This document shows positions 11,465-55,892 of a stretch of 64,000 nucleotides of DNA, in pieces. A program made the translations under genes and the position numbers. Each line of letters begins with the position of its first letter. Position 1 is the stretch's first letter. The DNA is from Pseudanabaena sp. PCC 7367 (GTDB taxonomy: Bacteria; Cyanobacteriota; Cyanobacteriia; Pseudanabaenales; Pseudanabaenaceae). Below the pieces are notes generated by a model that worked only from the letters and a program-made list of their open reading frames with translations, had not been told where the DNA came from and searched no databases. The DNA is taken from assembly GCF_000317065.1 (NCBI RefSeq), contig NC_019701.1, positions 496,001 to 560,000 of the forward strand, in the 5' to 3' direction.

Positions 11465-12271
11465 TTAAGCGATCAGCCGACTAGCCGAATCTGGCAAATT
11501 AGCATCGATCGCCCCATAGCATTCCGCCAGCGCCGCCCCCGATCGCATTTGCTCCACCAGAGCCTCATAGGCAGCGCTATACTCTTTGATCAGGGTGCGC
11601 GATCGTAGCAAAGCCCATCGCATCTCCATCTCTGGGTTTTTCTCTGGAGCCAATTCTTTCACCGCTGCCTTAAGCTGCCGCAGGTCATTCATGCCGCCAG
11701 TGTTACCAAGATCACCTGTCCAGGCATTTCCCGCTGAGCTGATCTGTGAGCTTGGGTTTGGATTTAACTCTGATGATTGTCGATCGCTAGCATCTAGATA
11801 TTGCTCCGCCGCGATCCCCGCCATCCAAACCGTACAATAGCGAGATAACATTTGAGGTTGCTTAATTTGAGCCGGATCGACTTCCACTCCAGCTACTGCC
11901 ATACCTGACATATTTGACATATTTGACATATTTGAGGGGGCGGAAAGTGGATCGAGGTTATAGCCAATAATCTTGAGACCAGACAGATAGGCAGCCAGGA
12001 AATGTCCGGCTTCGTGGTGCAAAATCCGCTCCATTCGCTCTGGCGATCGCCCCTCTAGCCAATTCAGCACAAAATTCGTACCGCGACCGGAAAAAGCACC
12101 TAGATCAATGCCATAAATAGCTAGGATCGCCACTGTGATCGCGGCAGTCAGCACAGGAGAAATACCAATCACTGGCCCCAGCAAAGCCATGATTGTGAGC
12201 GTAAAAATGCCGATCGCTATGATCGTGATATCAATTCCATCCTGATTAGGGTTAGGTGAATTATTATTCAT
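11465..12271 (-). CDS. Membrane protein with HEAGH zinc-peptidase motif (M41-like)
   Basis: Two hydrophobic segments near the N-terminus (about residues 14-60: ITIIAIGIFTLTIMALLGPV, then VLTAAITVAILAIYGI) precede ILHHEAGHFLAAYL (about residues 84-97). This is an HExxH zinc site as in FtsH-type M41 peptidases, but there is no AAA ATPase domain. Cyanobacteria carry such FtsH-protease-like stand-alone proteins. The middle contains a three-fold Ser-Asn-Met repeat encoded by a 9-base DNA repeat (near 11908-11935). Its ATG overlaps the stop of the upstream M15 peptidase gene by 4 bases (ATGA), so the two are translationally coupled. Confidence 0.65.
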   Translation of the reverse strand: MNNNSPNPNQDGIDITIIAIGIFTLTIMALLGPVIGISPVLTAAITVAILAIYGIDLGAFSGRGTNFVLNWLEGRSPERMERILHHEAGHFLAAYLSGLKIIGYNLDPLSAPSNMSNMSNMSGMAVAGVEVDPAQIKQPQMLSRYCTVWMAGIAAEQYLDASDRQSSELNPNPSSQISSAGNAWTGDLGNTGGMNDLRQLKAAVKELAPEKNPEMEMRWALLRSRTLIKEYSAAYEALVEQMRSGAALAECYGAIDANLPDSASRLIA

Positions 12272-13209
12272 CCTGCCCCCGCCGTTTCCGCTGGGGTATT
12301 CAGCCGATCTTTGGTCTTATAGAAAGTTTCCAGGCTATGGCGATCGCCCACAAAACGCCAATGCCAGGGCTCATAGGCAACGCCTTGTTTATTGTTGATC
12401 GGGAAAGACATTTCAAAGCCATAGCGAGCGCCGTTTTCCTGTAACCATTGAAATGCCGCCGTTTGCTCAAATTTCTGGGAAATGTGGGTACTGGGCACTG
12501 CTCCATCACCAATATCTACCGCATAGCCAGTGTGGTGTTCACTATAACCAGGTGGGGCACTAACTGTGGCGCGCTCGGAGGGGTTCTGGTTACGCTGCTG
12601 ACCAATATTAAAAAACAACTGGTTTTGTTCGTCCTGGGTGCGAAACCCAGAGACCGCCACCAAATCTATGCCACTGGCTCTGGCATCATCTGACATCCGC
12701 AAAAAGCTTTCCGCTGCCGCCGATCGCAACCTGATTTCATAACCATCACTGGCTCTGGCGATCGTGGTTAGCTCTGCTGGCGATGCTTCGACATAGGCAA
12801 AATGCTTGATCGAGCTATTATTTTGATTATCAGGCAGCTCCACATAATCTGCTTCGATTTCCTGACCTTGGGCATCGGGGTTGCTGGTAAATGAGTCGGG
12901 GCGATCGGGTGAACCAGCTATATTTGTTTCATCTTGAATATTCTCTGTGGTGGCTGCTGCGACGCGATCGACAGGTGCTTTCTGGTTGGCCTTATTAGTT
13001 TGCTGAGCCGTATTGACCACCCCATCTCCAGGTGTGGCATTAGCCATGTAACGCATTACCACGATCGGTGAAAAAAGCGCCAGGATTACAACGGAATAGC
13101 CCCACCAGGGAATTGCTTTGAGCGATCGCGCCACCGGGTTAGTGTTAGACGATTTTTTCTCAGTATTTGATACGCGCTGAGCAACAGGAATATCGTTGGG
13201 AGAAGACAT
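12268..13209 (-). CDS. D-alanyl-D-alanine carboxypeptidase, M15 (VanY) family
   Basis: VanY-type zinc peptidases trim the terminal D-Ala from peptidoglycan stem peptides. A single N-terminal membrane anchor (IPWWGYSVVILALFSPIVVM) is followed by a low-complexity linker and the M15B domain: VSGFRTQDEQNQLF, SEHHTGYAVDIGD (zinc His and Asp) and YEPWHWRFVG (catalytic Glu and zinc His). All key residues are present, so it should be active in the periplasm. I use the ATG at 13209; a TTG start at 13227 is possible. It is coupled to the following HEAGH membrane peptidase gene by a 4-base overlap. Confidence 0.88.
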   Translation of the reverse strand: MSSPNDIPVAQRVSNTEKKSSNTNPVARSLKAIPWWGYSVVILALFSPIVVMRYMANATPGDGVVNTAQQTNKANQKAPVDRVAAATTENIQDETNIAGSPDRPDSFTSNPDAQGQEIEADYVELPDNQNNSSIKHFAYVEASPAELTTIARASDGYEIRLRSAAAESFLRMSDDARASGIDLVAVSGFRTQDEQNQLFFNIGQQRNQNPSERATVSAPPGYSEHHTGYAVDIGDGAVPSTHISQKFEQTAAFQWLQENGARYGFEMSFPINNKQGVAYEPWHWRFVGDRHSLETFYKTKDRLNTPAETAGAG

Positions 13210-13412
13210 ATGGTTGCTTTGGGTCAATGTTTAGATAGCAGGTTATAGCAGATATTCAGGTTTTGTGGTTGCAACTTTGATTGGTCAGATTCAGATATTG
13301 AAATATTGAAATATCGAACAGTCAAGCGGGCTAGATCGTTGCAAGTTAATCCAAATTCGTGCTGTAATTCCTGCACCAGGGGCATTAATCTATACATATT
13401 GCAAGATTGCAC

Positions 13413-13727
13413 AGATTTACAGCAAACAGGCTAGATTGGATCATGGGTAATATACCTACAGTAACAGCCTAAATGCAACCATGAGAGGGAATAGTTTGGG
13501 CGACAATTTACGTTTAGTAACACTGCCGGAGAAATTTGATCGGTTTGATCGGTTTGATCAATGAGCGGAAAAGTTAGCGGCATACTTAAATAATTAATAT
13601 AATTAATTGCATCAACTAATTAAAATTGCTGATCGGCAGTAGATCCGGCCTAAGAGCCTGAATCTCAGCGATCGCACTGATGACGCGGAACCGGATTGCC
13701 CCTAAAATCGACTCTAGTTGAAAAGGT
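13413..13727. other. Spacer, nothing recognised
   Basis: This stretch separates the peptidase operon from a short plus-strand frame. It contains a tandem gatcggttt duplication near 13537-13555 and a GCGATCGC octamer near 13668. I see no convincing gene, terminator or RNA. Confidence 0.4.
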
Positions 13728-44108: not shown

Positions 44109-45215
44109 ATGTCAATCAAACCGCAATTCAAGCCCTGGACGGCGAGTACCGAGATCGTTGGCGTAACCCTGACGCTGCGATCGACCCTGGATAATCTTTT
44201 ACCTGCCAACTATGGCGTGGGGCTCCATGCCTGGTTTCTGCATCAGGTACGCGACAGCGATCCCATTCTTTCCGCCTATTTGCATGATGGCGAATCGGAA
44301 AAACCCTTCACCCTCTCGCCTCTGGTGGGTAAGTTGCTCAGTCGTGGCGATCGTCTGCTATTGCCCAAGCAAACTTTATACCGCTGGACAATCACCGCCC
44401 TCTATAAGCCTCTGTGTAAGTGGTTGGCAAAGTGGTTAAAAAATGTGCCAGAGGCGATCGATTTGCGGGATGCGACCCTGCCGATCGAGGCGATCGAGAT
44501 TTCTTTGCCAGCGATGACCTATAAAAAAATGTTCAAGGTGGAGCGGCAGCTAGCTCGCAACTTCACCCTTAGTTTTACTTCGCCAACGGGGTTCCGATCG
44601 AAGGGGCACCACCTGCCCTTGCCGATTCCGCGTAATGTATTTCATAGTTATTTGCGGCGCTGGAGTGATTTTGCCAAGCAATCGATCGACAAAGAAGAAT
44701 TCCTGAACTGGGTCGAGGAGAAGGTTTATATCAATAGTCATAATATCGCCACAATCAAGACGGCGGCAGGGAAGCGGGGGATGGTAACTGGGTTTACTGG
44801 GGTGGTGGAATTTGGCATTGATGGCGCGGCTCGAAATGACCTGACGCAGATGCAATTGCTACAAGCGCTGGTGCGTTATGCGCCCTATTGCGGCACGGGG
44901 CACAAGACTACGTTTGGGCTGGGGCAGACTAGCCTGGGCGAGGCGGAGGGATATGATCTGGCGTTGCCAGCGATCGCGGAGATTAAGCTGGCCGATCGGA
45001 TCGCGGCACTGACGGATATTTTTCTGGCGCAGAGGAAACGACCGAATAACGATCGATCGCGGCAGATTACGGCTACCTGGGCGACGGTGTTGGCAAGGCG
45101 GGAGTTTGGCGAATCGTTGCAGGACATTGCCGTTGATTTGGAGTTGAATTATCAAACCGCGAAAACCTATGTGAAGCTGGCGCGGCGGGCTTTGCGAGAG
45201 CATGAAGGGAATTAG
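44109..45215 (+). CDS. cas6: CRISPR repeat endoribonuclease Cas6 with C-terminal HTH extension
   Basis: Cas6 cuts precursor crRNA within repeats. The N-terminal RRM-like fold has the motif NYGVGLHAWFLHQV (His40 or His45 are candidate catalytic residues). The C-terminal ferredoxin fold ends in the glycine-rich loop GTGHKTTFGLGQ (residues 262-273). The core is followed by an additional 80-90 residues ending in a helix-turn-helix (ESLQDIAVDLELNYQTAKTYVKLARRAL, about 334-362) like a sigma or LuxR recognition helix. That is unusual for Cas6 and suggests DNA binding, perhaps autoregulation (inference). It converges with the cas10-cas7 operon. Confidence 0.88.
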   Translation: MSIKPQFKPWTASTEIVGVTLTLRSTLDNLLPANYGVGLHAWFLHQVRDSDPILSAYLHDGESEKPFTLSPLVGKLLSRGDRLLLPKQTLYRWTITALYKPLCKWLAKWLKNVPEAIDLRDATLPIEAIEISLPAMTYKKMFKVERQLARNFTLSFTSPTGFRSKGHHLPLPIPRNVFHSYLRRWSDFAKQSIDKEEFLNWVEEKVYINSHNIATIKTAAGKRGMVTGFTGVVEFGIDGAARNDLTQMQLLQALVRYAPYCGTGHKTTFGLGQTSLGEAEGYDLALPAIAEIKLADRIAALTDIFLAQRKRPNNDRSRQITATWATVLARREFGESLQDIAVDLELNYQTAKTYVKLARRALREHEGN

Positions 45216-45282: not shown

Positions 45283-45915
45283 TCAAGGCACATACTTAAC
45301 CTTTCGCAAACTGCCATCCTCACGCAGCGCCACCACTGAAACCTTTACAGCCTGCCCCTCGGTCAGCTTCTTCGCATGTTTCGGTTCCTTTTCCGTCAAT
45401 CGCACTGTTCCCAAAATCTCAAACGTGACCTTATTCCCCTTACCCAGACCAGTCACCACCGCATCCAGCAGCTCCCCCACCTGGAACTCATGCTGACTGG
45501 TGATCGCCGCGATCGCTTCTTCTCGTTCTGATCTTAGCTCCGTCGCCGCCATTTCCTGCAACTCTTCGATCGGAGTCGCCTCTGCATAATACCGCGTCAG
45601 CCTTGCTGCCCAGCCCAGAATCTGCAACAGTGCGGTTACATCATCTTGATAATCGAGCAAAAACTCCCGACATACCACCTCAATATTCTGCAAATAGGTC
45701 CTGGTGCGCTTACTGTGACCAATCTTGTCGCCCTGCTTCGCCAGGGTTGCCAAGTAATCAAAATACAGTTGCCCTGCCCCCGGTCGATCGGCAAAAGCCC
45801 GCAGGTAAGCGATCGTTTTTTTTAGTTCATTCGGATCAGCATCCGTTTTCGCCAGGGCGATCGCCATCCGTTCCGCCACCTGCATTTGATAATCGCTCAA
45901 GTTCTTTGTAAGCAT
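45283..45915 (-). CDS. Last gene of the type III-D operon, unknown function, possible OB-like C-terminus
   Basis: This 210-residue protein lies 10 bases after the cysteine-insertion cas7 gene and is the last gene of the effector operon. Residues 1-140 are helical with many charged residues (KKTIAYLRAFADRPGAGQLYFDYLATLAKQGD...). Residues 143-210 look like a small beta-barrel: QVGELLDAVVTGLGKGNKVTFEIL, then LTEGQAVKVSVVALREDGSLRKVKYV. This resembles an OB or S1/TRAM-like RNA-binding domain (inference). I do not recognise it as Csm6, Csx1 or any CARF protein. Position and tight coupling suggest an accessory subunit or regulator of the complex. Confidence 0.6.
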   Translation of the reverse strand: MLTKNLSDYQMQVAERMAIALAKTDADPNELKKTIAYLRAFADRPGAGQLYFDYLATLAKQGDKIGHSKRTRTYLQNIEVVCREFLLDYQDDVTALLQILGWAARLTRYYAEATPIEELQEMAATELRSEREEAIAAITSQHEFQVGELLDAVVTGLGKGNKVTFEILGTVRLTEKEPKHAKKLTEGQAVKVSVVALREDGSLRKVKYVP

Positions 45916-45925
45916 AGATCAATTT

Positions 45926-46972
45926 CTAGTACAATGCATCTGCTTGCCAACTTGCATTTTTGCCTAAAATGGAGACCAACTTTGCTAATTGGTTCGCCTG
46001 AACCAGGTTTTGATGAGCTAAAGCTATAGATCTTACGATCAGGCTATTTGAGTCAGATTTAGGCATACTTCCCTGCAAATCAAAATAGCGACTTTTTATA
46101 TCATCTCCATTAAATATCTCAGGTTCCACATTAATGGAAACCGTTCCAAAGCCGATCGGTTTGCCACCGCCAACCTTTAGGTTGAAACTATTATTCTGAT
46201 CCTGTCCTAGGGCAATTAACAAAGTCCCCAGCTCAGCAAGGGAAAGGTTCTGGAACTGCAACTTAGTCTTAAACTTATATTCATCAACTGCAACTTGAGT
46301 ATCTACTCCCTTATCACTTTCGGTTGCAGCCGAATCAAAGTTGTAATAGAACTTTCTGCCCCTGACTCTCTCATGTTCGTCATAGCACATGTGATGCCCT
46401 GGCCCATGTAAGTTTGGCATGAAGCATATATCTGAGGATACTTCTATGCAATGACAATCAAATATACTAATCAATCCTTGCCATCCCATAGAGCCAAATA
46501 CACGGCATGCAGGACATATTTCACTCTTATTCTCTTTTTTGTCCTTTTCCTTGATTTCACATTCTTTATACTTTTTTGCTGCTCTCGCCTTAGTTTTGCA
46601 TAAACAGCTTCGCGTAATCGCTTCAAAGACGGAGCGGACAACCCCTTTAAAAGAACTCCCAGGAATACGCAGGTGGCCAAGTGGACTGCTTTCCATAGTT
46701 TTGATCAAAGGAGCTGAATGTTTTATGTCAGTGCCCATTACCGTCAGGCCAGTTGATACATGCAAGGATGTCTTAACGGATAGGGTTACATGTAAAGCCC
46801 CATGCCAAAGATCGTGGCGGTAAATATTTTGTCCAGCTTTGGAAAGATCTTTTTTTATGGGGCGGTTAAGTAGTTCATATGGATGAGCTGGATCACAGCG
46901 TTTAACGTCAGATGGTAGTGGAACAAAGTCATAAGGCTTTGGGACATTTGGTTGCTTATAGGAATAAGTCAT
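45926..46972 (-). CDS. Type III-D RAMP protein, Cas7 with cysteine-rich insertion
   Basis: A Cas7-fold backbone subunit of 348 residues. The RAMP signature is HLRIPGSSFKGVVRSVFEAI (about residues 100-119). Directly after it is a Lys/Glu/Cys-rich insertion with Cys123, 125, 138, 153 and 156 (SCLCKT...ECEI...ICPACRVFGSMGW), a likely zinc site. The glycine-rich loop is KVGGGKPIGFGTV. The position of the catalytic Asp of Csm3-type Cas7 (before the PLIK/PVIK segment) is Ser86 in HSAPLIKT, so this subunit is probably not a nuclease. It corresponds to the Cas7-insertion subunit of type III-Dv. Its start overlaps the csx19-like stop by 4 bases. Confidence 0.75.
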   Translation of the reverse strand: MTYSYKQPNVPKPYDFVPLPSDVKRCDPAHPYELLNRPIKKDLSKAGQNIYRHDLWHGALHVTLSVKTSLHVSTGLTVMGTDIKHSAPLIKTMESSPLGHLRIPGSSFKGVVRSVFEAITRSCLCKTKARAAKKYKECEIKEKDKKENKSEICPACRVFGSMGWQGLISIFDCHCIEVSSDICFMPNLHGPGHHMCYDEHERVRGRKFYYNFDSAATESDKGVDTQVAVDEYKFKTKLQFQNLSLAELGTLLIALGQDQNNSFNLKVGGGKPIGFGTVSINVEPEIFNGDDIKSRYFDLQGSMPKSDSNSLIVRSIALAHQNLVQANQLAKLVSILGKNASWQADALY

Positions 46973-47475
46973 TTTCTCTCTTCCAGCTTAGGTTCTTTTA
47001 GGGTGAGCGCCACAAAATGCACAGTGCAGGTTTGCTTATTTTTAAAATATCTTTGTCCCATTGAACTATCTTTGGATTTAGGGACTTCCCCTACAAAGGG
47101 TTTAGGGAATCTGGTTTTATCTTGGTTCTTTTTATACAAATGAGCGTAGCGATCTTCGTATTCCCATTCCCCTGGTAAGGACTTAAATCCTTCAACCAGT
47201 TTCTTGGTAGTAAGCAATAAAACACTATACTCATTACCTTGTGGCTTCCATCTCAACTCGCTCTCACTATTGAATAGCTGCCCTGTTGGAGTAAGGCAAT
47301 CGGCACTTGGCAAGCCCTGCTTAAACCCACTAACCTGATGCGGTTCGCGCAGAAAGTAATAGTTCTCTTCTTTTCTCTCAGTGATAGTTATTTGTTTAAA
47401 TAGCTCAGAGAGTTCCTTTTGAGTAACATGATTCCGAAATCCAACATAGGCTTTATTACTACTTTTACTACTCAT
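46969..47475 (-). CDS. csx19: Csx19-like type III-D protein (all1473 group)
   Basis: A 168-residue protein in the slot where type III-D and III-Dv loci carry csx19, between the paired cas7 genes and the insertion cas7. The segment TGQLFNSESELRWKPQGNEYSVLLL (residues 64-88) resembles the G-x-L-F...E-L-R-W core I associate with Csx19/TIGR03984. In III-Dv, Csx19 sits in the complex as a non-RAMP subunit. The rest is charged and without motifs. Both its start and its stop overlap neighbours by 4 bases (ATGA), so it is strictly co-translated. The family call is moderate because it rests on position plus one motif. Confidence 0.6.
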   Translation of the reverse strand: MSSKSSNKAYVGFRNHVTQKELSELFKQITITERKEENYYFLREPHQVSGFKQGLPSADCLTPTGQLFNSESELRWKPQGNEYSVLLLTTKKLVEGFKSLPGEWEYEDRYAHLYKKNQDKTRFPKPFVGEVPKSKDSSMGQRYFKNKQTCTVHFVALTLKEPKLEERK

Positions 47476-48485
47476 GATGCAACTCCTTTTGGCATCAATA
47501 GCTTACGCCATGCCCCAACCGCACGCTCGAATAATTCTTTAACATTATTAGAATCCCAGACAAGTTCAACTCCGAATCCTAATTCCATTGCTTCACCTGG
47601 CACAGATGTATCTTGAAAATCATCTTTAGGGAACCCATATGCTTCACATTCACTCTTACTTAGGAACATCCCAGCCCCCAATAAAGAAGTATGCGGCCAT
47701 CCCGCAGTATTGCCAATCAACTTGATCTCTTCATTATCTAACACACAGCCAGGATACTGCACCACCACCCGATCGATCGCCACTTGTACCATTCCTAAAC
47801 CGCGCGACTTGGCAAACCCCAGACCAAACCAGCCCTCATTGAGATCTCGCAACACCAGCCCAATCAAGGCAAGTTGAGCAAGGGTGAAGTTCTTAAGATG
47901 GATCTTAGTTGTAAATTTCCCTGCGGTACAGACCTGATAGTTAAACGGCCCCACCGCCACCGAGCCGAAGACCCGATCGATCGCTACGCCATTTCGTTCT
48001 TCGGTTTTGACTGCTACCTCTGGAGCGGGATAGGCATCTTCGATCCTAAAGCGACTGGCAACTGATGTGCTACCAAATAACTGAGTTGTAAAACAGGACA
48101 TTTTGTACAACGAAGCTCCTGGATTAGGTTCCCTATCTTCTAACTTTTTATTCTTTTCACCTTTTTTCCAATCATCTAAATAGTGATTAGGGTTATTATC
48201 TCTACATTCACTCAGTGGATCGCTTGCCCAGAGTTTGTTTTGTTCATCACCAGGACGGCGATCGCTACCGATCGTTCTTACGATTCTTTCCGCATGGGCT
48301 CGGATCGCCCCTTTTAGCGAGCTACCTGGGAAATAGATCGATTTACCACCTTGATGATAGGTTTCTACAAACTCCATGCTCGGTTTAGTGGGATCGGCTC
48401 CTTCCTGGCCAGACTTGACTAAAACAGGGCCATCTGGCTCGATACTGATCTCAATGGTGCAATGATTAACTAATCGTTTATGCAT
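47472..48485 (-). CDS. Type III-D RAMP protein, Cas7 (Csm3-like)
   Basis: A Cas7 backbone subunit of 337 residues with KSGQEGADPTKPSMEFVET (Asp31 is the candidate catalytic residue), followed by SIYFPGSSLKGAIRAHAERIVRTIGSD (RAMP signature). The family segments SRFRIEDAYPA, RNGVAIDRVFGSV and the glycine-rich GFAKSRGLGMVQV are all present. The DPTxP...FV-T motif is the form seen in the second Cas7 of Cas7-2x and in Cas7-11 (family knowledge). It would bind crRNA and cut target RNA in one 6-nt register. It follows another cas7 by 37 bases and overlaps csx19 by 4. Confidence 0.82.
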   Translation of the reverse strand: MHKRLVNHCTIEISIEPDGPVLVKSGQEGADPTKPSMEFVETYHQGGKSIYFPGSSLKGAIRAHAERIVRTIGSDRRPGDEQNKLWASDPLSECRDNNPNHYLDDWKKGEKNKKLEDREPNPGASLYKMSCFTTQLFGSTSVASRFRIEDAYPAPEVAVKTEERNGVAIDRVFGSVAVGPFNYQVCTAGKFTTKIHLKNFTLAQLALIGLVLRDLNEGWFGLGFAKSRGLGMVQVAIDRVVVQYPGCVLDNEEIKLIGNTAGWPHTSLLGAGMFLSKSECEAYGFPKDDFQDTSVPGEAMELGFGVELVWDSNNVKELFERAVGAWRKLLMPKGVAS

Positions 48486-48522
48486 TCCAATTCTCCAAGC
48501 TTAGAATTTTATTGGGAAGGTA

Positions 48523-49440
48523 CTAAATACAACTAAGGTAAGTAATGAGTTCCTGTGTCCATTGTGTTTTTCTCTCTTCGTCCGAAGGAACCGGCTCGCG
48601 TTCTTGAGCTTCTTCCAGGCCGGCAAGCTTTTTGAGATATTTCAACATTTTCTGGGGATCTGGTTCGCTATTCTTTAATTTATTAGGGTTGAATAAACCG
48701 TCTTCTGGATCTTTCTCTACTTCTTTTGTAACATCAATCCAATTCATTTTATCGATCGTTAGTTTGACTACTCCTAAACCACGCGATCGTCCACCACCAA
48801 GCGGTATCTGCTCCGCCTCAAATTGATGTAAGCCAATCATGAGTAAGCCCAGTTCCCATCCTTCCGCATTCTCAACCACACATTTGAATTCAAACTCAGT
48901 GCCAGCAGGAACAACCTGATAGTTATAAAGCTTGCCGTCGGCGGCGGTTTCTGTGTCCCGATCGATCGATACCCCATCGCGTTCTTGATATTGACCAAAC
49001 CAGGTATCTTTAATTACAGTCAAATCCCTAACCTGGAATTTACTGGCTAGCCAGGGCGATCCAAATAACCGCGAGATTAGATCTGTATGCCCAATAATAT
49101 ATTCATTTAAGCTACTCTCTCGTTCATATTGGGAGAGCTTCTCAAGACTTTTTTTGAATTCTGAAAGTTCTTCCGATCTGATTGACCATTCTTTTTCATC
49201 AGAGGGATCTGCTACTAACCTTCGATCGCTACCCAAAATGCCGCGCAAAAAAGATTCTAGCCGCGATCGGAGCGCTCCTTTAAAACTGGAACCAGGAATC
49301 AAAGGATTACCCAATGCATCCTTGATTACAGGCAGATCGGAGCCGATCGGTTCATTAGAACGACCAGCACTAATTCTGATCGCCGTAATTGTTTTCAGTG
49401 TTCCTGTTACTTCTAAACGATTTTTGAATATATCAAACAT
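48523..49440 (-). CDS. Type III-D RAMP protein, Cas7 (Csm3/Csx7-like)
   Basis: A Cas7 backbone subunit of 305 residues. GSDLPVIKDALGNPLIPGSSFKGALRS contains the catalytic Asp (Asp35, in the same place as Asp33 of Csm3) and the RAMP signature. RDGVSIDRDTETAADGKLYNYQVVPAG and GGGRSRGLGVVKL complete the fold. A charged C-terminal tail (residues 255-295) is extra. It should cleave target RNA. The gene starts with ATG 40 bases after the small-subunit gene and is followed 37 bases later by another cas7. The pair corresponds to the fused Cas7-2x of III-Dv. Confidence 0.85.
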   Translation of the reverse strand: MFDIFKNRLEVTGTLKTITAIRISAGRSNEPIGSDLPVIKDALGNPLIPGSSFKGALRSRLESFLRGILGSDRRLVADPSDEKEWSIRSEELSEFKKSLEKLSQYERESSLNEYIIGHTDLISRLFGSPWLASKFQVRDLTVIKDTWFGQYQERDGVSIDRDTETAADGKLYNYQVVPAGTEFEFKCVVENAEGWELGLLMIGLHQFEAEQIPLGGGRSRGLGVVKLTIDKMNWIDVTKEVEKDPEDGLFNPNKLKNSEPDPQKMLKYLKKLAGLEEAQEREPVPSDEERKTQWTQELITYLSCI

Positions 49441-49480
49441 TTCCTATATTTGCTCTCAAAACATACTGCTATACGAAACT

Positions 49481-50032
49481 TTAACGTACTGGTTTAGCAT
49501 GTTTATTTTTCTCTTTACGAAGATTTTCCATGATTTTATTTTCTCCTACAAGAGCTGTATGTTCTCGTGCCAAGTACCCTAAATAAAGGCGAGCGAGCTT
49601 TAGGTGAATTTCTTTTGTTAATGCGGCCTTTTGCTGAGGATTTTTAAGATACTCAGATACGTCATTATTCTCTGCGTCACTATTTTCCAGGCTGTTGATA
49701 ATATCATTAGTATACTTGGACAACGCATTAAGTTCTTCTGCTAATTTGGTAGCAAAAAGCTTATCACCTAGAGAATGCTTCCAGATTGGACTTGAATTTG
49801 CCCTCCCAATTTGATACTTGATAAAACCTTTTATACTTTCCAAGGAAGCAGAAAATTCCATAGCCACTGCAAGAATATTGCGAAATGGCGTTTTTTTATC
49901 TTTTTGATGAATCTTGTAATCATGAGCGAGCTTCTGAAGCTGGAGTATAACTGAGTCCATTCGCAACCCTATCTCACTCTCGACTTTTAAATCCAATCTC
50001 ATCTGAAATCTTGAACGTTTCTTAATATCCAC
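49481..50032 (-). CDS. Type III-D small subunit, Cas11-like (Csm2 group)
   Basis: An all-helical protein of 183 residues. It has RNILAVAMEFSASLESIKGFIKYQIGR followed by SPIWKHSLGDKLFATKLAEELNAL and a Lys-rich end, as in Csm2/gr11 small subunits that line the target-RNA groove. I use the GTG start at 50032, directly after the csx10 TAA, because GGGAGGA lies about 10 bases before it. An ATG 30 bases further in is the alternative. Its place right after csx10 matches the Cas11 part of the fused Cas7-5-11 protein. Small subunits diverge strongly, so the call relies on size, helicity and position. Confidence 0.65.
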   Translation of the reverse strand: MDIKKRSRFQMRLDLKVESEIGLRMDSVILQLQKLAHDYKIHQKDKKTPFRNILAVAMEFSASLESIKGFIKYQIGRANSSPIWKHSLGDKLFATKLAEELNALSKYTNDIINSLENSDAENNDVSEYLKNPQQKAALTKEIHLKLARLYLGYLAREHTALVGENKIMENLRKEKNKHAKPVR

Positions 50033-51346
50033 TTATTTTGATTCCTCCCATAGGTTCAAGTGAAACCGATCGCAAACTCTGACCTGGCCAAACCCTTCGC
50101 AAGTGCGATCGCCCACTCCAGTTATTTCTAACTTTGCCAATCGCTCCAGCCAGTCTTCTTCATTCTCTTGACTAATACTAAATAAATATACTGCCCCCAT
50201 TTTAGTAACTAGCTCAACATCTTTCTTGAGCCCCCAGGCAGCATTCCAGCCCGATAAATAGTCATAACTACTGTAGGCGATCTCTAGTTGTAAATCTTGA
50301 TTATCACTGTTTTTGTTAACGAACTGTTGTAGCATTTCTGGCGAAATAATTGTCGTGCGCAACCAGTTTTCAGAAAGGATCGCATCAGATTGCAGATCGA
50401 TCGTAAAATATAGCTTTTTAGGATTAAAATCTCTTCCGCCAAAGAGCTTTTGCCAGTCTTTATATTGTTCTTCCAGCTTCGCATTAAATGCTTTTACGCG
50501 ATTCCCTAAAGCCTGCTGATTGCTGTTAGTATCGTTCGATTCAGCCTTAAGCTCTACCCTACCCAGCCCCCGCGAGATCGAACCACCAAAACGGAAGCTT
50601 TGTTGATTCGCCTGAATATAATCAATCAAAGCATTAGCTAATTCCTTATTCTCTAACAGGATTGAGCTTTTATATATTACTTGCTGATTATTTTTACCCT
50701 GCATCTCATTTAGCACCTCAATGCTATAAAGAATACTTTCTTCTGCGGTGTTAAGTTTGCGATTGATTCCAACCCTGGTCAGCAGTCGCTTGTCTATGCT
50801 AATAGAGTGATAGTTTTTTACTTCGCTATCAGTCTCTTCAGTACAATAGAAGCCTGAATAAGTATCAGTGCGATCGCTCTCTTTTCCCTCTAAATTTGGG
50901 CAGACTGGCGCATAAATCTGGTTGAGACATTGGGCACAAAAGCGATCGATCAGTGTATCAAACACCCCTTTCTTTTTGGTTTTATTATTATTTCTAAACC
51001 CTGAGTGTGTTTTTGCGCTGAGTGCTGTAGCTGGGAGTATGGAAATTTTTGAAGAGGCAATCCTGGCAAATTTTATCTCTTCCTCTAACTCATGCTTATA
51101 AATGGCGGGATAGGCATTCTGGAATATTGCTGCCCCATCATCCAGAAACAGCGACTTAAAATCATTCTCACTGGTACGAAGATGCTCTAGATTAGGCTGC
51201 GCTTGCTCAAGTATCTTAGCAGCGATCGCCCCTCTAATTACAGTGCCAGGGATATAATCACAAGCTTCACTGACCGAACCACCGGGCTTTTTCTTGCCGA
51301 TCGCCAAAGGAGAAAGGGCAGTAATCGTTAGATCAACCTGCTGCAT
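50033..51346 (-). CDS. csx10: Csx10, Cas5-group RAMP protein of type III-D
   Basis: Csx10 is the Cas5-like subunit that holds the 5' handle of the crRNA. This 437-residue protein has the RAMP start LTITALSPLAIGKKKPGGSVSEACDYIPGTVIRGAIA. A likely zinc knot with cysteines in FCAQCLNQIYAPVCPNL comes next, then SISIDKRLLTRVGINR, SFRFGGSISRGLGRVEL and the very typical C-terminal YDYLSGWNAAWGLKKDVELVTKMGAVYLFS with a final GFGQVRVC. It overlaps the preceding cas7 by 14 bases and abuts the small-subunit gene. Its presence is the key marker for subtype III-D. Confidence 0.88.
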   Translation of the reverse strand: MQQVDLTITALSPLAIGKKKPGGSVSEACDYIPGTVIRGAIAAKILEQAQPNLEHLRTSENDFKSLFLDDGAAIFQNAYPAIYKHELEEEIKFARIASSKISILPATALSAKTHSGFRNNNKTKKKGVFDTLIDRFCAQCLNQIYAPVCPNLEGKESDRTDTYSGFYCTEETDSEVKNYHSISIDKRLLTRVGINRKLNTAEESILYSIEVLNEMQGKNNQQVIYKSSILLENKELANALIDYIQANQQSFRFGGSISRGLGRVELKAESNDTNSNQQALGNRVKAFNAKLEEQYKDWQKLFGGRDFNPKKLYFTIDLQSDAILSENWLRTTIISPEMLQQFVNKNSDNQDLQLEIAYSSYDYLSGWNAAWGLKKDVELVTKMGAVYLFSISQENEEDWLERLAKLEITGVGDRTCEGFGQVRVCDRFHLNLWEESK

Positions 51347-52034
51347 TCGAGCTTCCCTCCGTAGCTTGTAATTCCTGAATATCTGCTTCCGTTATTTGAA
51401 ATGCGCTTAAATCCCATGACAGCCAACCCAATCCAGCAGACTTACTGCCACCAAGGGCATTGATGTGTTTTAGGGCTGCAAATATCAGGGGCTTAGCATA
51501 ACCTGGGCGATCGGGAATGAAGTTGATATTGCCCTCAAACTTTAGTTCAGAAGCAGGAGGTGTAGTTTCCAGGTAGAATAATTTTTGATCCTTTGCCGTT
51601 CTTAATTTTCTACTAATGGTTACGCCAGGTCTAGTAAATTCAGGTAAGCTGGCCGTATCTTGTTTACAGATTAAATCATCAAAGAGAACATGAGAAGGGA
51701 ACCTGGGATTACCAAAAATTTGACATATTTTGCAATAATTTCCCGACTGGCCTGGGGAACTCGCTCTCTGTGGGCACATATTCTGAGCGATCGGCGATCC
51801 ACAAACATCCCATTCTAATGCTCTGCCAAGTTTCTCGCATTCGTGGCGCAGTCGCCCTTTGATCTGAGACGCAGGAATAACAAACCGCCCCATTGCATCG
51901 CGCACGATCGGCTTATCTGCCAATGAACCCGAAGAACCACCAGCACCAATACAAAGAGCTGTATCGATCGTAGCAGCGATCGTGATTGGTTCCGTTCGCC
52001 TATCGGACTGAATAAGACGAGCAAGATTAACCAT
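51333..52034 (-). CDS. Type III-D RAMP protein, Cas7 with zinc-site cysteines (Csm3-like)
   Basis: The compact Cas7 subunit next to cas10, 233 residues. GSLADKPIVRDAMGRFVIPASQIKGRLRHECEKL holds the candidate catalytic Asp40 (as in Csm3) and a RAMP signature. A cysteine set follows: CGSPIAQNMC, then YCKICQIFGNPRF, the usual Csm3-group zinc site. TRPGVTISRKLRTAKDQKLFYLETTPPA and GGSKSAGLGWLSW complete it. It overlaps cas10 by 8 bases and csx10 by 14, so the three are translationally coupled. It corresponds to the N-terminal Cas7 domain of Cas7-5-11. Confidence 0.85.
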   Translation of the reverse strand: MVNLARLIQSDRRTEPITIAATIDTALCIGAGGSSGSLADKPIVRDAMGRFVIPASQIKGRLRHECEKLGRALEWDVCGSPIAQNMCPQRASSPGQSGNYCKICQIFGNPRFPSHVLFDDLICKQDTASLPEFTRPGVTISRKLRTAKDQKLFYLETTPPASELKFEGNINFIPDRPGYAKPLIFAALKHINALGGSKSAGLGWLSWDLSAFQITEADIQELQATEGSSNAAG

Positions 52035-54429
52035 TAGCTCTAACCTCCCTGGAAGATTTTGCTACATCGATCGGCTCCATTAAAACATTCTCTTCCTCAA
52101 TGAACGGATATAGATCAATTAACTCGCGCCAGATTGTTTCGTAGGCAATTATTTCTAGATTCCCTCCCTCATCTTCTTTAGCAACACTCAGCCAGGGTGC
52201 TAAGTTACCTTTATTCTCTTGATTCTTCGGTTTACACCAGGCTTCTTCAAAATCTTGTTTTAATTTTTTCTGCCCTTTCTTTAACCTAGTGCGGAAATAG
52301 CGATAGTTGAGAATGGCAGTGTTTTTGCCAAATTTCAGGAGATCACGAATTTGATAGAGTTGGGATTTAGGGAATTCCAACTCCTTGAGATCACGAATAA
52401 TATTGATCAAGCTATTTAATTCTGCCAGGGTATAGGGTGCAGCATATAATTTCAGCTTTTGATTCCTTTCTACGGTAAGTGCCTCGTCCCTGAATGAAGT
52501 AATATTGGATGAGATCATCGTTACCGCTTTCATCACAAGAAAATCGATCGTGCCGCCATAGTAGTTCTTCTGCGTTTTTAAGTTTTTGGCTTTCTTTTTG
52601 GCAGACTTGAGCAATTGGCTAACTAACTTATCTGCGTAATAGATAGGCGTGCTACTAGAGGTGATCAGAACTCCAGTGGACATACTTAATGATACTTTAT
52701 TCAGAGATATGCCATCTTCCGAATGTCGATGAGTATCTTTTTTTGTATTATCATGCTCTAGCTTGTATTTTCTTTGGGCTTTTTCACGCTCTCGATCGAA
52801 TTCACATAATATGTTTTCAAACTCCTCACCGATCGCAATAGCAATTTCCAGCGCCTTATTCGCAGGCACAATCAAGAGGACATCATCCCCACCGATCGTG
52901 ATAATTTCAAATGGATGAATCCAATCGCCATTTTTGTTTCTTGTGTCCTGGGCAGACGATAAATTTTTGAGCTGATATGGATGGAGGTGCTGGGCAATCG
53001 CCTTGTAAACAGAATTCTCAGTCGCTTTAAAAATCTCCTGGCTAAAGATTTTGTATCCTTCAATATCAGTAATAGTCTGGATATGACCACCCATATTGTT
53101 GCCATCGGCATATATATAGGCAATATAACCATTACGATCGCCTATCTCAACAACACTCTGAACTTCACTTATTGCATTATTGCGATTGAAATCTGCATAA
53201 TAATTATCACCAAGCCCTGGATTATCTTTTAGAAAATCTTGGAATTTCACAATCCAGCTATCAACCTCAAGCGCATCCCAATCTATACCTTGCGCCTTTT
53301 TTATCCTTTCCCACCAATCGAGATCTTCACCGCGCTTGGCTTTTTCACTTATCACCCGTTTTCTTGCCAAAGGCTCAGACATCCAGGGCTGACCGGGTAA
53401 ATCTTCAACTTGAGCGATCGCGGTGCGGCTGTCATAGCTATCCCTGACCAGATAGGGATGAGTCTCAAACATGGGTGGATAGCAACGAGGCGATCGCCCT
53501 TCCTCAAAATCATTCCCATTACGACGATACTCAAATTTTGTGGCTAGTTTCGCTACCAGTTCATTAAAACTTTTTCGTTTTCTAAATACTTCCTTGAATT
53601 CACCTTCATCTGAAAGGCTTTTTGCATTGAACTGCGATCGCACGATTGGGCTATCTCTCTTCTCCCAATAATCATTCAGCCATGGCGTTTGCCGAATATT
53701 TTCTTGGTTAAGCAACCCAAACCGAAACTCCAGTAATGAGAACTTTTCACCAACAGCACAGGAATTCGCCGTCATCGTCTCGTCGGTATAGCGCTTCTCG
53801 ATCGCATCAGCTAAGTGATTCACAAAGAACGCTGGACAAAGGGCAAGAATATTACCACCAGTTGAATAGATTTTTAGTTCGGGGATTAATGCTTGCTTTA
53901 GATCGCCAAAGCCGTTTTTATTTAGCCATTTATTTACTGCTTTTCTTAAGTGAGCTTGCTCATCTTTTACTTGCAAGTGAGTTTGATCATCTGTCTCGAT
54001 TTCAAAAAAAGCAGGGAGATCCGCTAGATTAATTCGATCTAATAGAGCAGAAGCGCCTCTAATACCAGGCAGCTTGGCTGCTTCAAATACATACTGTTTG
54101 ATCTTGGTAGCACCGCCATAGACCAGGCCAATCTTAATTTCTTGCTCTACCAGTTTGGCGTAATCATTATCATTGGTGAGAGTGTCGATCGCCTTGCCAA
54201 ATTCCCCCTCTTGGATTTTAATATTTTGCAATTCTTGAACTTGCTCAACGATCGACGCAACCGCCGCAGGCACTTGATCGATTTGCCCACTTATTAGGGC
54301 ATCCCGCATCTGCAAAAGCACTTGCCGATCGAAATTCGGCTCTTTTTGATCTCCCCAGGCCAAACACCAGGACAGGGCGATCGTGGTCTGCTGTTTCTCT
54401 TTAGCTGTGCTCTGGTTCTCTGCTGGCAT
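52027..54429 (-). CDS. cas10: Cas10, type III-D (GGDD cyclase-type palm, no HD domain)
   Basis: Cas10 is the large subunit. It recognises target RNA and, with an intact palm, makes cyclic oligoadenylate. The first palm is visible from IGLVYGGATKIKQYVFEAAKLPGIRGASALLD (about residues 100-131) with YSTGGNILALCP. The second has YIYADGNNMGGH and the synthase motif GGDD at residues 513-516 (TIGGDDVLLIVP). The roughly 100 residues before the first palm contain no HD motif, so the ssDNA nuclease domain is absent. That is characteristic of III-D. The 800-residue length fits. It is the first gene of the operon. Confidence 0.9.
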   Translation of the reverse strand: MPAENQSTAKEKQQTTIALSWCLAWGDQKEPNFDRQVLLQMRDALISGQIDQVPAAVASIVEQVQELQNIKIQEGEFGKAIDTLTNDNDYAKLVEQEIKIGLVYGGATKIKQYVFEAAKLPGIRGASALLDRINLADLPAFFEIETDDQTHLQVKDEQAHLRKAVNKWLNKNGFGDLKQALIPELKIYSTGGNILALCPAFFVNHLADAIEKRYTDETMTANSCAVGEKFSLLEFRFGLLNQENIRQTPWLNDYWEKRDSPIVRSQFNAKSLSDEGEFKEVFRKRKSFNELVAKLATKFEYRRNGNDFEEGRSPRCYPPMFETHPYLVRDSYDSRTAIAQVEDLPGQPWMSEPLARKRVISEKAKRGEDLDWWERIKKAQGIDWDALEVDSWIVKFQDFLKDNPGLGDNYYADFNRNNAISEVQSVVEIGDRNGYIAYIYADGNNMGGHIQTITDIEGYKIFSQEIFKATENSVYKAIAQHLHPYQLKNLSSAQDTRNKNGDWIHPFEIITIGGDDVLLIVPANKALEIAIAIGEEFENILCEFDREREKAQRKYKLEHDNTKKDTHRHSEDGISLNKVSLSMSTGVLITSSSTPIYYADKLVSQLLKSAKKKAKNLKTQKNYYGGTIDFLVMKAVTMISSNITSFRDEALTVERNQKLKLYAAPYTLAELNSLINIIRDLKELEFPKSQLYQIRDLLKFGKNTAILNYRYFRTRLKKGQKKLKQDFEEAWCKPKNQENKGNLAPWLSVAKEDEGGNLEIIAYETIWRELIDLYPFIEEENVLMEPIDVAKSSREVRANG

Positions 54430-54664: not shown

Positions 54665-55504
54665 TTAATCAATTGCGCTCATAACATAGGCTGAATCAAC
54701 CATTGCTACCATAAGTGATATTTTGTTATTAGCTATATGAACATAATCAACTTTTTTGCTATGTAAAAACGCTGTTAGTACATCTGATTTCGAAGGAATA
54801 TAGACAACAATCATAGCTTTCTTGCTAAGTTGGTTTGCGATCTGATTCAGGGATTGCTTTAGCTCAGGCTCAGACTGAGGTGCATTTACAATATCCAACA
54901 ATACAGCGCAGTTCTCATATCTATCATCTTGTCTAATGGCAATTTCCGGCGTGATTCTGAATCTTCTTTTGCTTAGAATCCTGTATTCTGGAAGTTTCTT
55001 AACATCTGCTATGGATTGACCAATAAGCAAATATATAATTTGTAATTCCTCTATTACCACTTCTTTGGCTACTGCTCTTTCAACAAACTCTAACCGCTGT
55101 CGAATTTCCCTTGAAATCTGATTATTTACTTCTCGCTTAATAATGTAATTCATTTCCCGATCGACTATACTTACAATCTCTCGCTTCAACGATTCGGTGA
55201 TTTTTTCTTCAGCTTCCGTAAGAGTTTTGCCGTAAATAAAGACCGCGATCGCTCCCAAAACCCCAACAAAGACAAGGAAATAGTTGAAATTATTACTTAA
55301 AGAGTCAAAATTGTTAGCAATTTTCTCATTTGCATCCTGCAGAAACTCGATCTGCTTTAGCAGAATATCCACATCTACGCTAGGAGAAGGAGTCGGAATT
55401 GGGGTTGGCGTAGGGCTAGGGCTGGGCGTAGGTTGAGCCTGAGCAACAAGAGCCACCAGATCGAACAGATGCCAGTGTATAGATTGCAAATTCAGTAAAT
55501 TCAT
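54665..55504 (-). CDS. Membrane-anchored coiled-coil protein upstream of cas10, possible type III ancillary protein
   Basis: The N-terminus up to about AQAQ looks like a signal or membrane segment. A Pro/Thr/Ser linker (PTPSPSPTPTPIPTPSPS) follows, then a transmembrane helix (FNYFLVFVGVLGAIAVFIYG). Next is a long coiled coil (EAEEKITESLKREIVSIVDREMNYIIKREVNN...). The last 100 residues look like a small Rossmann-type fold: ENCAVLLDIVNAP, KKAMIVVYIPSKSDVLTAFL, KVDYVHIAN. I see no HEPN or nuclease signature and no certain CARF motif. I prefer the ATG at 55504 over a TTG at 55537. It is same-strand and adjacent to cas10, so a role as signal-triggered membrane effector is possible but unproven. 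Confidence 0.6.
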   Translation of the reverse strand: MNLLNLQSIHWHLFDLVALVAQAQPTPSPSPTPTPIPTPSPSVDVDILLKQIEFLQDANEKIANNFDSLSNNFNYFLVFVGVLGAIAVFIYGKTLTEAEEKITESLKREIVSIVDREMNYIIKREVNNQISREIRQRLEFVERAVAKEVVIEELQIIYLLIGQSIADVKKLPEYRILSKRRFRITPEIAIRQDDRYENCAVLLDIVNAPQSEPELKQSLNQIANQLSKKAMIVVYIPSKSDVLTAFLHSKKVDYVHIANNKISLMVAMVDSAYVMSAID

Positions 55505-55892
55505 AGAATATCGGCCACCACCATAAAACTTGCCCAAATTATAGGTTTAAACTGAGCCGCATTACTATTTCTAATTCATCGATCGCCAAAGACCAACTAC
55601 AGCCGATCGCCACAACGCATATTCTATCCGACATTCCGCGGTTTACTTTGGAAAATTAATAATTAAATTGATGATGCAATCCCAAAGCCCTTATTACCAC
55701 GTAGCTTGGTCAATTTCACAAGAAAACAAGAGAACTGACTTAAGACTGATAAGCATATATACTGGCTCATAATAATTTGTCCAAATGCCATATATAGAGT
55801 TTTAGATTGTTTGGGGTACTACATATAGCGTCAATATTTAATTGATCAATTTCGTTTTATAAGCGCGGAATGTGGGTTCTATTAACTTGCCA
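55505..55892. other. Spacer, no gene or array seen
   Basis: An A/T-rich stretch of 388 bases between the membrane protein and the glycosyltransferase gene. I checked it for direct repeats with regular spacing, because it borders the Cas locus, and found none. Confidence 0.5.

Follow-up and report, generated by a model that had tools for sequence, protein, structure and literature searches.

An unfused type III-D1 CRISPR effector operon in Pseudanabaena sp. PCC 7367 with the gene order that III-Dv keeps in fused form

The genome of Pseudanabaena sp. PCC 7367 (4.89 Mb, two contigs) encodes a type III-D CRISPR (clustered regularly interspaced short palindromic repeats) effector complex within the stretch of NC_019701.1 analysed here (the window; 64,000 nt, the positions of which serve as coordinates). 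With a probability of about 0.9, this locus is a standard unfused III-D1 effector operon, the genes of which follow the order that the III-Dv variant keeps in fused form. The open reading frame (ORF) map and family matches recovered, on the minus strand and as separate ORFs, all eight genes named in an earlier sequence-only reading, in the order cas10, cas7-1, csx10, cas11, cas7-2, cas7-3, csx19 and cas7-4 (Table 1); the range considered there, 45283-54429, also contains a ninth gene, csx21. A single match to the Cas10 model TIGR02577 was found in the whole genome.

The operon belongs to subtype III-D because Csx10 (TIGR02674) and Csx19 are present, and to its III-D1 form because all effector subunits are encoded by separate genes. 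The lack of an HD domain in Cas10 is a further criterion for III-D, and a motif search of the cas10 product found GGDD at residue 513 and no N-terminal HD pair. Among Cas10 proteins longer than 650 aa, copies included, the same kind of search found GGDD in 81/81 and an HD pair within the first 120 residues in 1/81. Csx19 is often, although not always, present in III-D, according to the available text of PMC11026444 (all papers are cited here from parts of their text). The parts that make up the Cas7-Cas5-Cas11 and Cas7-Cas7 fusions of III-Dv are separate ORFs here, and cas7-4 carries no large insertion of the kind found in the last Cas7 of III-Dv. The presence of Cas10 and of separate genes likewise sets the operon apart from III-E, with its single fused Cas7-11 and no Cas10, and its separate Cas7 genes distinguish it from III-D2, characterised in PMC8730458 by three fused Cas7 (Cas7x3).

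A scan of genome contigs with the csx10 alignment found 128 relatives, of which 80 were kept, all bearing genus names that we take to be cyanobacterial. The 86 III-D1 loci considered below comprise 78 of these (L044 and L076 were left out as copies of L026 and L027), seven others and the window; the sample was found by csx10 likeness and hence leans towards loci of the window's kind. The exact nine-gene order, from cas10 to cas7-4 and csx21, occurs in 64 of these 86 cyanobacterial loci. In the other 22, which were not individually checked, genes are lacking, split or running into a neighbouring locus (L025), and many of the contigs are short. No two of the 86 loci share an identical csx10 core. 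The public annotation of the Allocoleopsis franciscana plasmid pMIC7113.03 (NC_019740) shows the same genes in the same order, including a csx21-like gene and cas6. In contrast to the window, it carries extra genes at two junctions: one of the Cas_APE2256 type at cas11/cas7-2, and two with 206-aa products at cas7-2/cas7-3. A separate observation concerns L107, where a 541-aa frame (11813-13438) has a segment resembling Cas7 (65 bits to the cas7-1 profile) that continues into cas7-4, and where cas7-2, cas7-3 and csx19 were not found; this would be a deletion or fusion confined to this III-D1 locus.

A related known system is III-Dv of Synechocystis 6803 (plasmid pSYSA, NC_005230; structures 8s9t-8s9x), the record of which was taken by accession and was not among the plasmid matches listed for csx10. 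It has the same order of parts, with relatives domain by domain. It differs from the window in the Cas7-Cas5-Cas11 and Cas7-2x fusions, in a last Cas7 that carries the large insertion, and in a shorter Cas10 (558 aa against 800 aa). In profile-profile comparisons (hhalign, with three half-fused loci, described below, included in the III-Dv domain sets), the III-D1 genes cas7-1, cas7-2, cas7-3 and cas7-4 score 82, 79, 33 and 17 against the N-terminal Cas7 of Cas7-Cas5-Cas11; 88, 147 (146.5), 105 and 32 against the first Cas7 of Cas7-2x (2x.1); 53, 140, 162 and 42 against the second (2x.2); and 37, 70, 52 and 221 against Cas7-insertion. The best match of each III-Dv domain is therefore the gene in the same position (4/4, the first narrowly), and in the reverse direction this applies to 3/4. 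A Cas7 tree (70 rows, 252 columns, 8 of the 14 III-D1 loci of the preceding set; L025 cas7-1, outside the length limits, and the short, 542-aa Cas7-insertion of L125 in group 4 were omitted) joins cas7-4 with Cas7-insertion at 100/100, cas7-3 with 2x.2 at 92/88, and cas7-1 with the N-terminus of Cas7-Cas5-Cas11 at 79/84.

Several results weigh against this positional correspondence or against the operon being the older state. The cas7-1 profile scores 88 to 2x.1 against 82 to the domain in its own position; cas7-2 is unpaired with 2x.1 in the tree and sits beside group 4 at 43/44; the Cas7 trees contain meeting long branches, flagged by the program; III-D1 Cas11 has no detectable sequence match in the III-Dv Cas11 region (E 0.23); and the polarity from separate to fused genes rests on parsimony, since the root was not inferred. 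Forcing cas7-2 and 2x.1 into one clade was not rejected (approximately unbiased (AU) test, p 0.46), and the two are reciprocal best profile matches. In the phylogenetic check proposed in the sequence-only reading, run here against III-Dv, positional pairing is strong in the case of cas7-4 and good for cas7-3; that of cas7-1 is weak, and cas7-2 is not resolved. Judged by profiles and tree, cas7-3 corresponds to the second Cas7 of Cas7-2x, while cas7-1 and cas7-2 are probable counterparts of the N-terminal Cas7 of Cas7-Cas5-Cas11 and of the first Cas7 of Cas7-2x, respectively. As its genes stand in the order that III-Dv keeps in fused form, the operon represents the unfused state of the III-Dv lineage.

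By the same evidence, together with the matches to Cas7-11 given below, cas7-4 corresponds to Cas7-insertion and to the last Cas7 of Cas7-11, but lacks the large insertion. It is 348 aa long, against 668-833 aa in unbroken copies of Cas7-insertion, and its matches to TIGR03986 are confined to positions 1-96 and 412-530, the insertion part being missing. Frames of ~330-400 aa in other genomes match this model at about 1-102 and 320-567, and ~200 residues of Cas7-insertion (264-469 in Synechocystis) are without counterpart in the alignment. The Cys stretch of cas7-4 is short, with C153 as its only invariant Cys in a 24-row alignment. It had been taken for the insertion of III-Dv and III-E, an identification contradicted by the match to TIGR03986 in two pieces, from which the insertion residues are absent.

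The sequence-only reading further held that the neighbouring genes later joined were ones that already overlapped. Its overlap values of 8, 14, 0 and 4 bases are right (cas10/cas7-1, 8; cas7-1/csx10, 14; csx10/cas11, 0, abutting; cas7-3/csx19 and csx19/cas7-4, 4 each), but it omitted the two junctions that do not overlap, cas11/cas7-2 (40 bp apart) and cas7-2/cas7-3 (37 bp). In III-D1 loci near the window's, overlaps were counted with the longest ORF starts and are upper bounds. The junctions fused in III-Dv are cas7-1/csx10, csx10/cas11 and cas7-2/cas7-3. The first two agree with the proposed mechanism, overlapping in 82/84 and 73/86 loci, but cas7-2/cas7-3 overlaps in only 6/77; here the gap has a median of 652 bp, exceeds 200 bp in 56/77 and usually holds an extra gene. 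Conversely, cas10/cas7-1 and cas7-3/csx19 overlap in 72/82 and 68/76 loci, yet are fused in 0/26 fused loci. The remaining counts are 2/81 for cas11/cas7-2 and 34/75 for csx19/cas7-4. It is therefore unlikely that overlap decided which genes were joined.

Gaps of more than 150 bp were present at both cas11/cas7-2 and cas7-2/cas7-3 in 53 of the 77 loci that have the two junctions, at the former only in 12, at the latter only in 4, and at neither in 8, including the window. Two kinds of genes, both absent from the window, occupy these junctions. One protein cluster lies between cas11 and cas7-2 in 43 loci (e.g. L020 13782-14903); its Allocoleopsis member matches Cas_APE2256 and TIGR02619 and is presumably a CARF-type effector. 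A search of the Pseudanabaena genome for Cas_APE2256 gave no match, and as no control matched either, absence is not established. A cluster of ~206-aa proteins lies between cas7-2 and cas7-3 in 50 loci (e.g. L020 15821-17089), and its two Allocoleopsis members have no match in NCBIfam or Pfam.

A natural step between III-D1 and III-Dv is provided by 15 half-fused cyanobacterial loci (L024, L030, L036, L125, L126, L168-L170, L172-L177, L182), which include Planktothrix agardhii p3 and Sphaerospermopsis plasmid1. They comprise cas10, a free cas7-1, a csx10 of 520-580 aa, cas7-2x, csx19 and Cas7-insertion, the last being split in L168 and short in L125. In the five loci used for a profile, the csx10 product has a C-terminal extension that aligns with the III-Dv Cas11 region (columns 52-562 with 250-779, probability 99.7), and csx10 directly adjoins or overlaps cas7-2x, so that a separate cas11 would not fit between them. 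Neither the half-fused nor the III-Dv class includes L167, a diverged locus of odd architecture, L171, in which Cas7-insertion alone was found, or L035, with a single weak Cas7. In the Cas10 tree, III-D1 (12 rows), half-fused (15) and III-Dv (11) form clades at 100/100, 100/98 and 99/99. The half-fused form is intermediate because the three states are nested, with no, two and three fusions. The term 'Csx10-Cas11' was not found in literature searched by that wording; the half-fused form may be in print.

The order in which the fusions arose can be proposed at no better than even odds: cas7-2 with cas7-3, csx10 with cas11, and the insertion would have come first, and cas7-1 with csx10 last, the half-fused clade being a living example of the half-fused state. 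This order is weakened by Cas7 group 3, where the half-fused and III-Dv rows fail to form a single clade (they do so in 10% of bootstrap trees) and III-D1 cas7-3 groups with III-Dv, at a weak 89/32. With this weak support, the group speaks against a single origin of Cas7-2x, which may have arisen twice. As separate observations, L024 (3945-19031, genome G039) carries a half-fused and a III-D1 locus head to tail, ~320 bp apart, and frames of 1199 and 1230 aa, considered as new insertion-less Cas7 fusions, were rejected, as L165 and L166 have ordinary separate genes.

In the opposite scenario, a fused III-Dv-like ancestor was split and III-D1 is secondarily unfused. It is compatible with the Cas10 tree, which has no outgroup beyond III-D and in which each of the three forms occupies one side of a branch. 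However, the nested states would then require repeated splits at domain borders with new starts, which is less simple, the large insertion would need to be lost too, and separate Cas7 paralogues also occur in the III-D structure 8bmw; secondary splitting is thus very improbable. Least credible of all is that the four Cas7 are recent local duplicates in a coincidentally III-Dv-like order: the III-D1 cas7-1 and cas7-2 profiles do score 152 with each other, above either's score to any III-Dv domain, but across loci the copies of each gene group in a clade of their own, and a single III-D1 Cas7 clade costs 62 log units and is rejected under the model used (AU p 0.0003), so that the outcome named beforehand as refuting the pre-fusion arrangement did not occur.

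Comparison with III-E was made solely through profile matches to Protein Data Bank (PDB) sequences, with profiles of 23 or 24 orthologues each, and through predicted models of cas7-1 and cas7-3, for which structure-match rows within 1 Z unit count as ties; viral contigs scanned with alignment A5 yielded no relative. In Cas7-11, the cas7-4 profile matches the last Cas7 at E 1e-31 to 5e-26; its match to III-Dv Cas7-insertion has E 2e-22. The best match of cas7-1 in Cas7-11 is at ~698-871, which we take to be the third Cas7, ahead of the last Cas7, with nothing positive at the first. The best stretch for cas7-2 is again in the last Cas7, in its C-terminal part, and cas7-3 has no Cas7-11 match at E 0.001. 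The cas7-1 model (mean predicted local distance difference test score (pLDDT) 73.6) has type VII Cas7 and 8bmw chain H (Z 12.3) as its highest-scoring rows. It also aligns with Cas7-11 at ~470-880 (Z up to 12.2) and, at Z 10.9, with residues 1-222 of III-Dv Cas7-Cas5-Cas11. The cas7-3 model (mean pLDDT 75.5) is best matched by 8bmw chain H (Z 17.0, root-mean-square deviation 4.6, 244 aligned; next 12.5) and, within Cas7-11, aligns to the last Cas7 (Z up to 12.2). The 8bmw complex, SsoCsm III-D, presumably archaeal, has separate Cas7 paralogues as in the window, although it is diverged from the window models (16-23% identity). Along 9wxh chain D, a protein of 1235 aa from the TIGR03986 family, the profiles of cas7-2, cas7-3 and cas7-4 match piecewise in that order, although the best single piece of cas7-2 is at the far end. 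Cas10 has no PDB sequence match at E 0.01. Although its last Cas7 is matched by cas7-4, III-E is, unlike the window, one protein without Cas10 and Cas5 (PMC8730458 and PMC11026444). A one-to-one correspondence with all III-E domains, as previously suggested, is not supported by these profiles and models: it is borne out for cas7-4 alone.

The catalytic Asp residues of III-Dv are given as D26, D33 and D246 in the available text of PMC11026444. They share one alignment column, in which Asp is found in 13/13 cas7-1, 14/14 cas7-2 and 13/14 cas7-3 rows, the exception being the window. In wider sets, Asp is present in 81/81 cas7-1 (Asp40), 78/79 cas7-2 (Asp35) and 72/77 cas7-3 proteins; cas7-3 of the window has Ser36 at the presumed catalytic Asp, and four other copies have Gln or Asn. 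Asp36 was matched to D246 by its equal distance from a Pro-Gly-Ser motif, and its catalytic role is not certain because the nearby Asp31 is kept in 76/77. The loss of one RNA cutting site in the window cas7-3 is therefore possible.

No CRISPR array was found in the window or within 20 kb on either side. A III-D-type repeat occurs in 69 copies, in six clusters on contig C2 (841.8k, 3090k, 3106k, 3411k, 3694k and 3888k; control 0), all at a great distance from the operon. The only Cas1 match of the genome (PF01867) adjoins a different array (C2 2205086), which, from the ORF sizes, probably belongs to a type I-C system. Judging from the protein families, Cas6 would cut transcripts of CRISPR arrays located elsewhere in the genome, and Cas10, Csx10, Cas11, Csx19 and the four different Cas7 would assemble on the CRISPR RNA. 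Target RNA may then be cut at the Cas7 sites with the conserved Asp, in cas7-1 and cas7-2 and doubtfully in cas7-3, while the GGDD site of Cas10 may make a nucleotide signal.

Among the four RAMP/Cas7 proteins, only cas7-2 passes an NCBIfam cut-off (TIGR02581). The cas6 gene is the sole TIGR01877 (Cas6 model) match in the whole genome, and its sigma-like part scores below its Pfam cut-off. Upstream of cas10, a 290-aa protein (54665-55537) has a Pro-rich stretch and a hydrophobic segment; NCBIfam gave no match and Pfam only weak ones below the cut-off. It may act as an accessory membrane protein or have no connection with the operon.

Table 1. Genes of the III-D1 locus, in window positions
Gene	Position	Strand	Product and family match
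cas10	52027..54429	-	800 aa; TIGR02577 139.8 bits (cut-off 79.4)
cas7-1	51333..52034	-	233 aa; Pfam RAMPs 78.1 bits (cut-off 22.1)
csx10 (Cas5 of III-D)	50033..51346	-	437 aa; TIGR02674 400.7 bits (cut-off 177.3)
cas11 (Csm2-type small subunit)	49481..50032	-	183 aa, GTG start; PADLOC Csm2 E 6e-30, III-D small-subunit model E 7e-26
cas7-2 (Csx7)	48523..49440	-	305 aa; TIGR02581 250 bits; Pfam RAMPs 95.8 bits
cas7-3	47472..48485	-	337 aa; Pfam RAMPs 93.1 bits
csx19	46969..47475	-	168 aa; PADLOC Csx19 E 8.5e-44
cas7-4	45926..46972	-	348 aa; Pfam RAMPs 48.6 bits
csx21 (III-D associated, function unknown)	45283..45915	-	210 aa; PADLOC Csx21 E 5e-79
cas6, with C-terminal helix-turn-helix/sigma-70 region 4-like part	44109..45215	+	368 aa, adjoins csx21

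The locus is one further member of a common cyanobacterial subtype. The evolutionary idea of the sequence-only reading is right in outline and already published: in the text available from PMC11026444, III-Dv keeps the III-D1 order with its subunits fused, and unfused III-D1 is a candidate pre-fusion state. That the locus preserves such an arrangement agrees with the positional match of its genes to III-Dv, while the overlap mechanism and the full match to III-E are not supported. According to PMC12669027, III-E and III-I go back to different variants of III-D, in the case of III-E probably to III-D2; PMC8730458 describes III-D2, with Cas7x3, as an apparent intermediate. The locus is of use in arranging the steps that led to fused effectors: the genes probably stood in this order before fusion began, the insertion is a change separate from the fusions, and overlap does not account for the choice of neighbours that fused. 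The half-fused clade supplies naturally occurring constructs with which the effect of each fusion could be examined. If the proposed order of fusions is true, natural forms would allow the path from an RNA-cutting complex of many genes to one of few genes to be rebuilt and tested.

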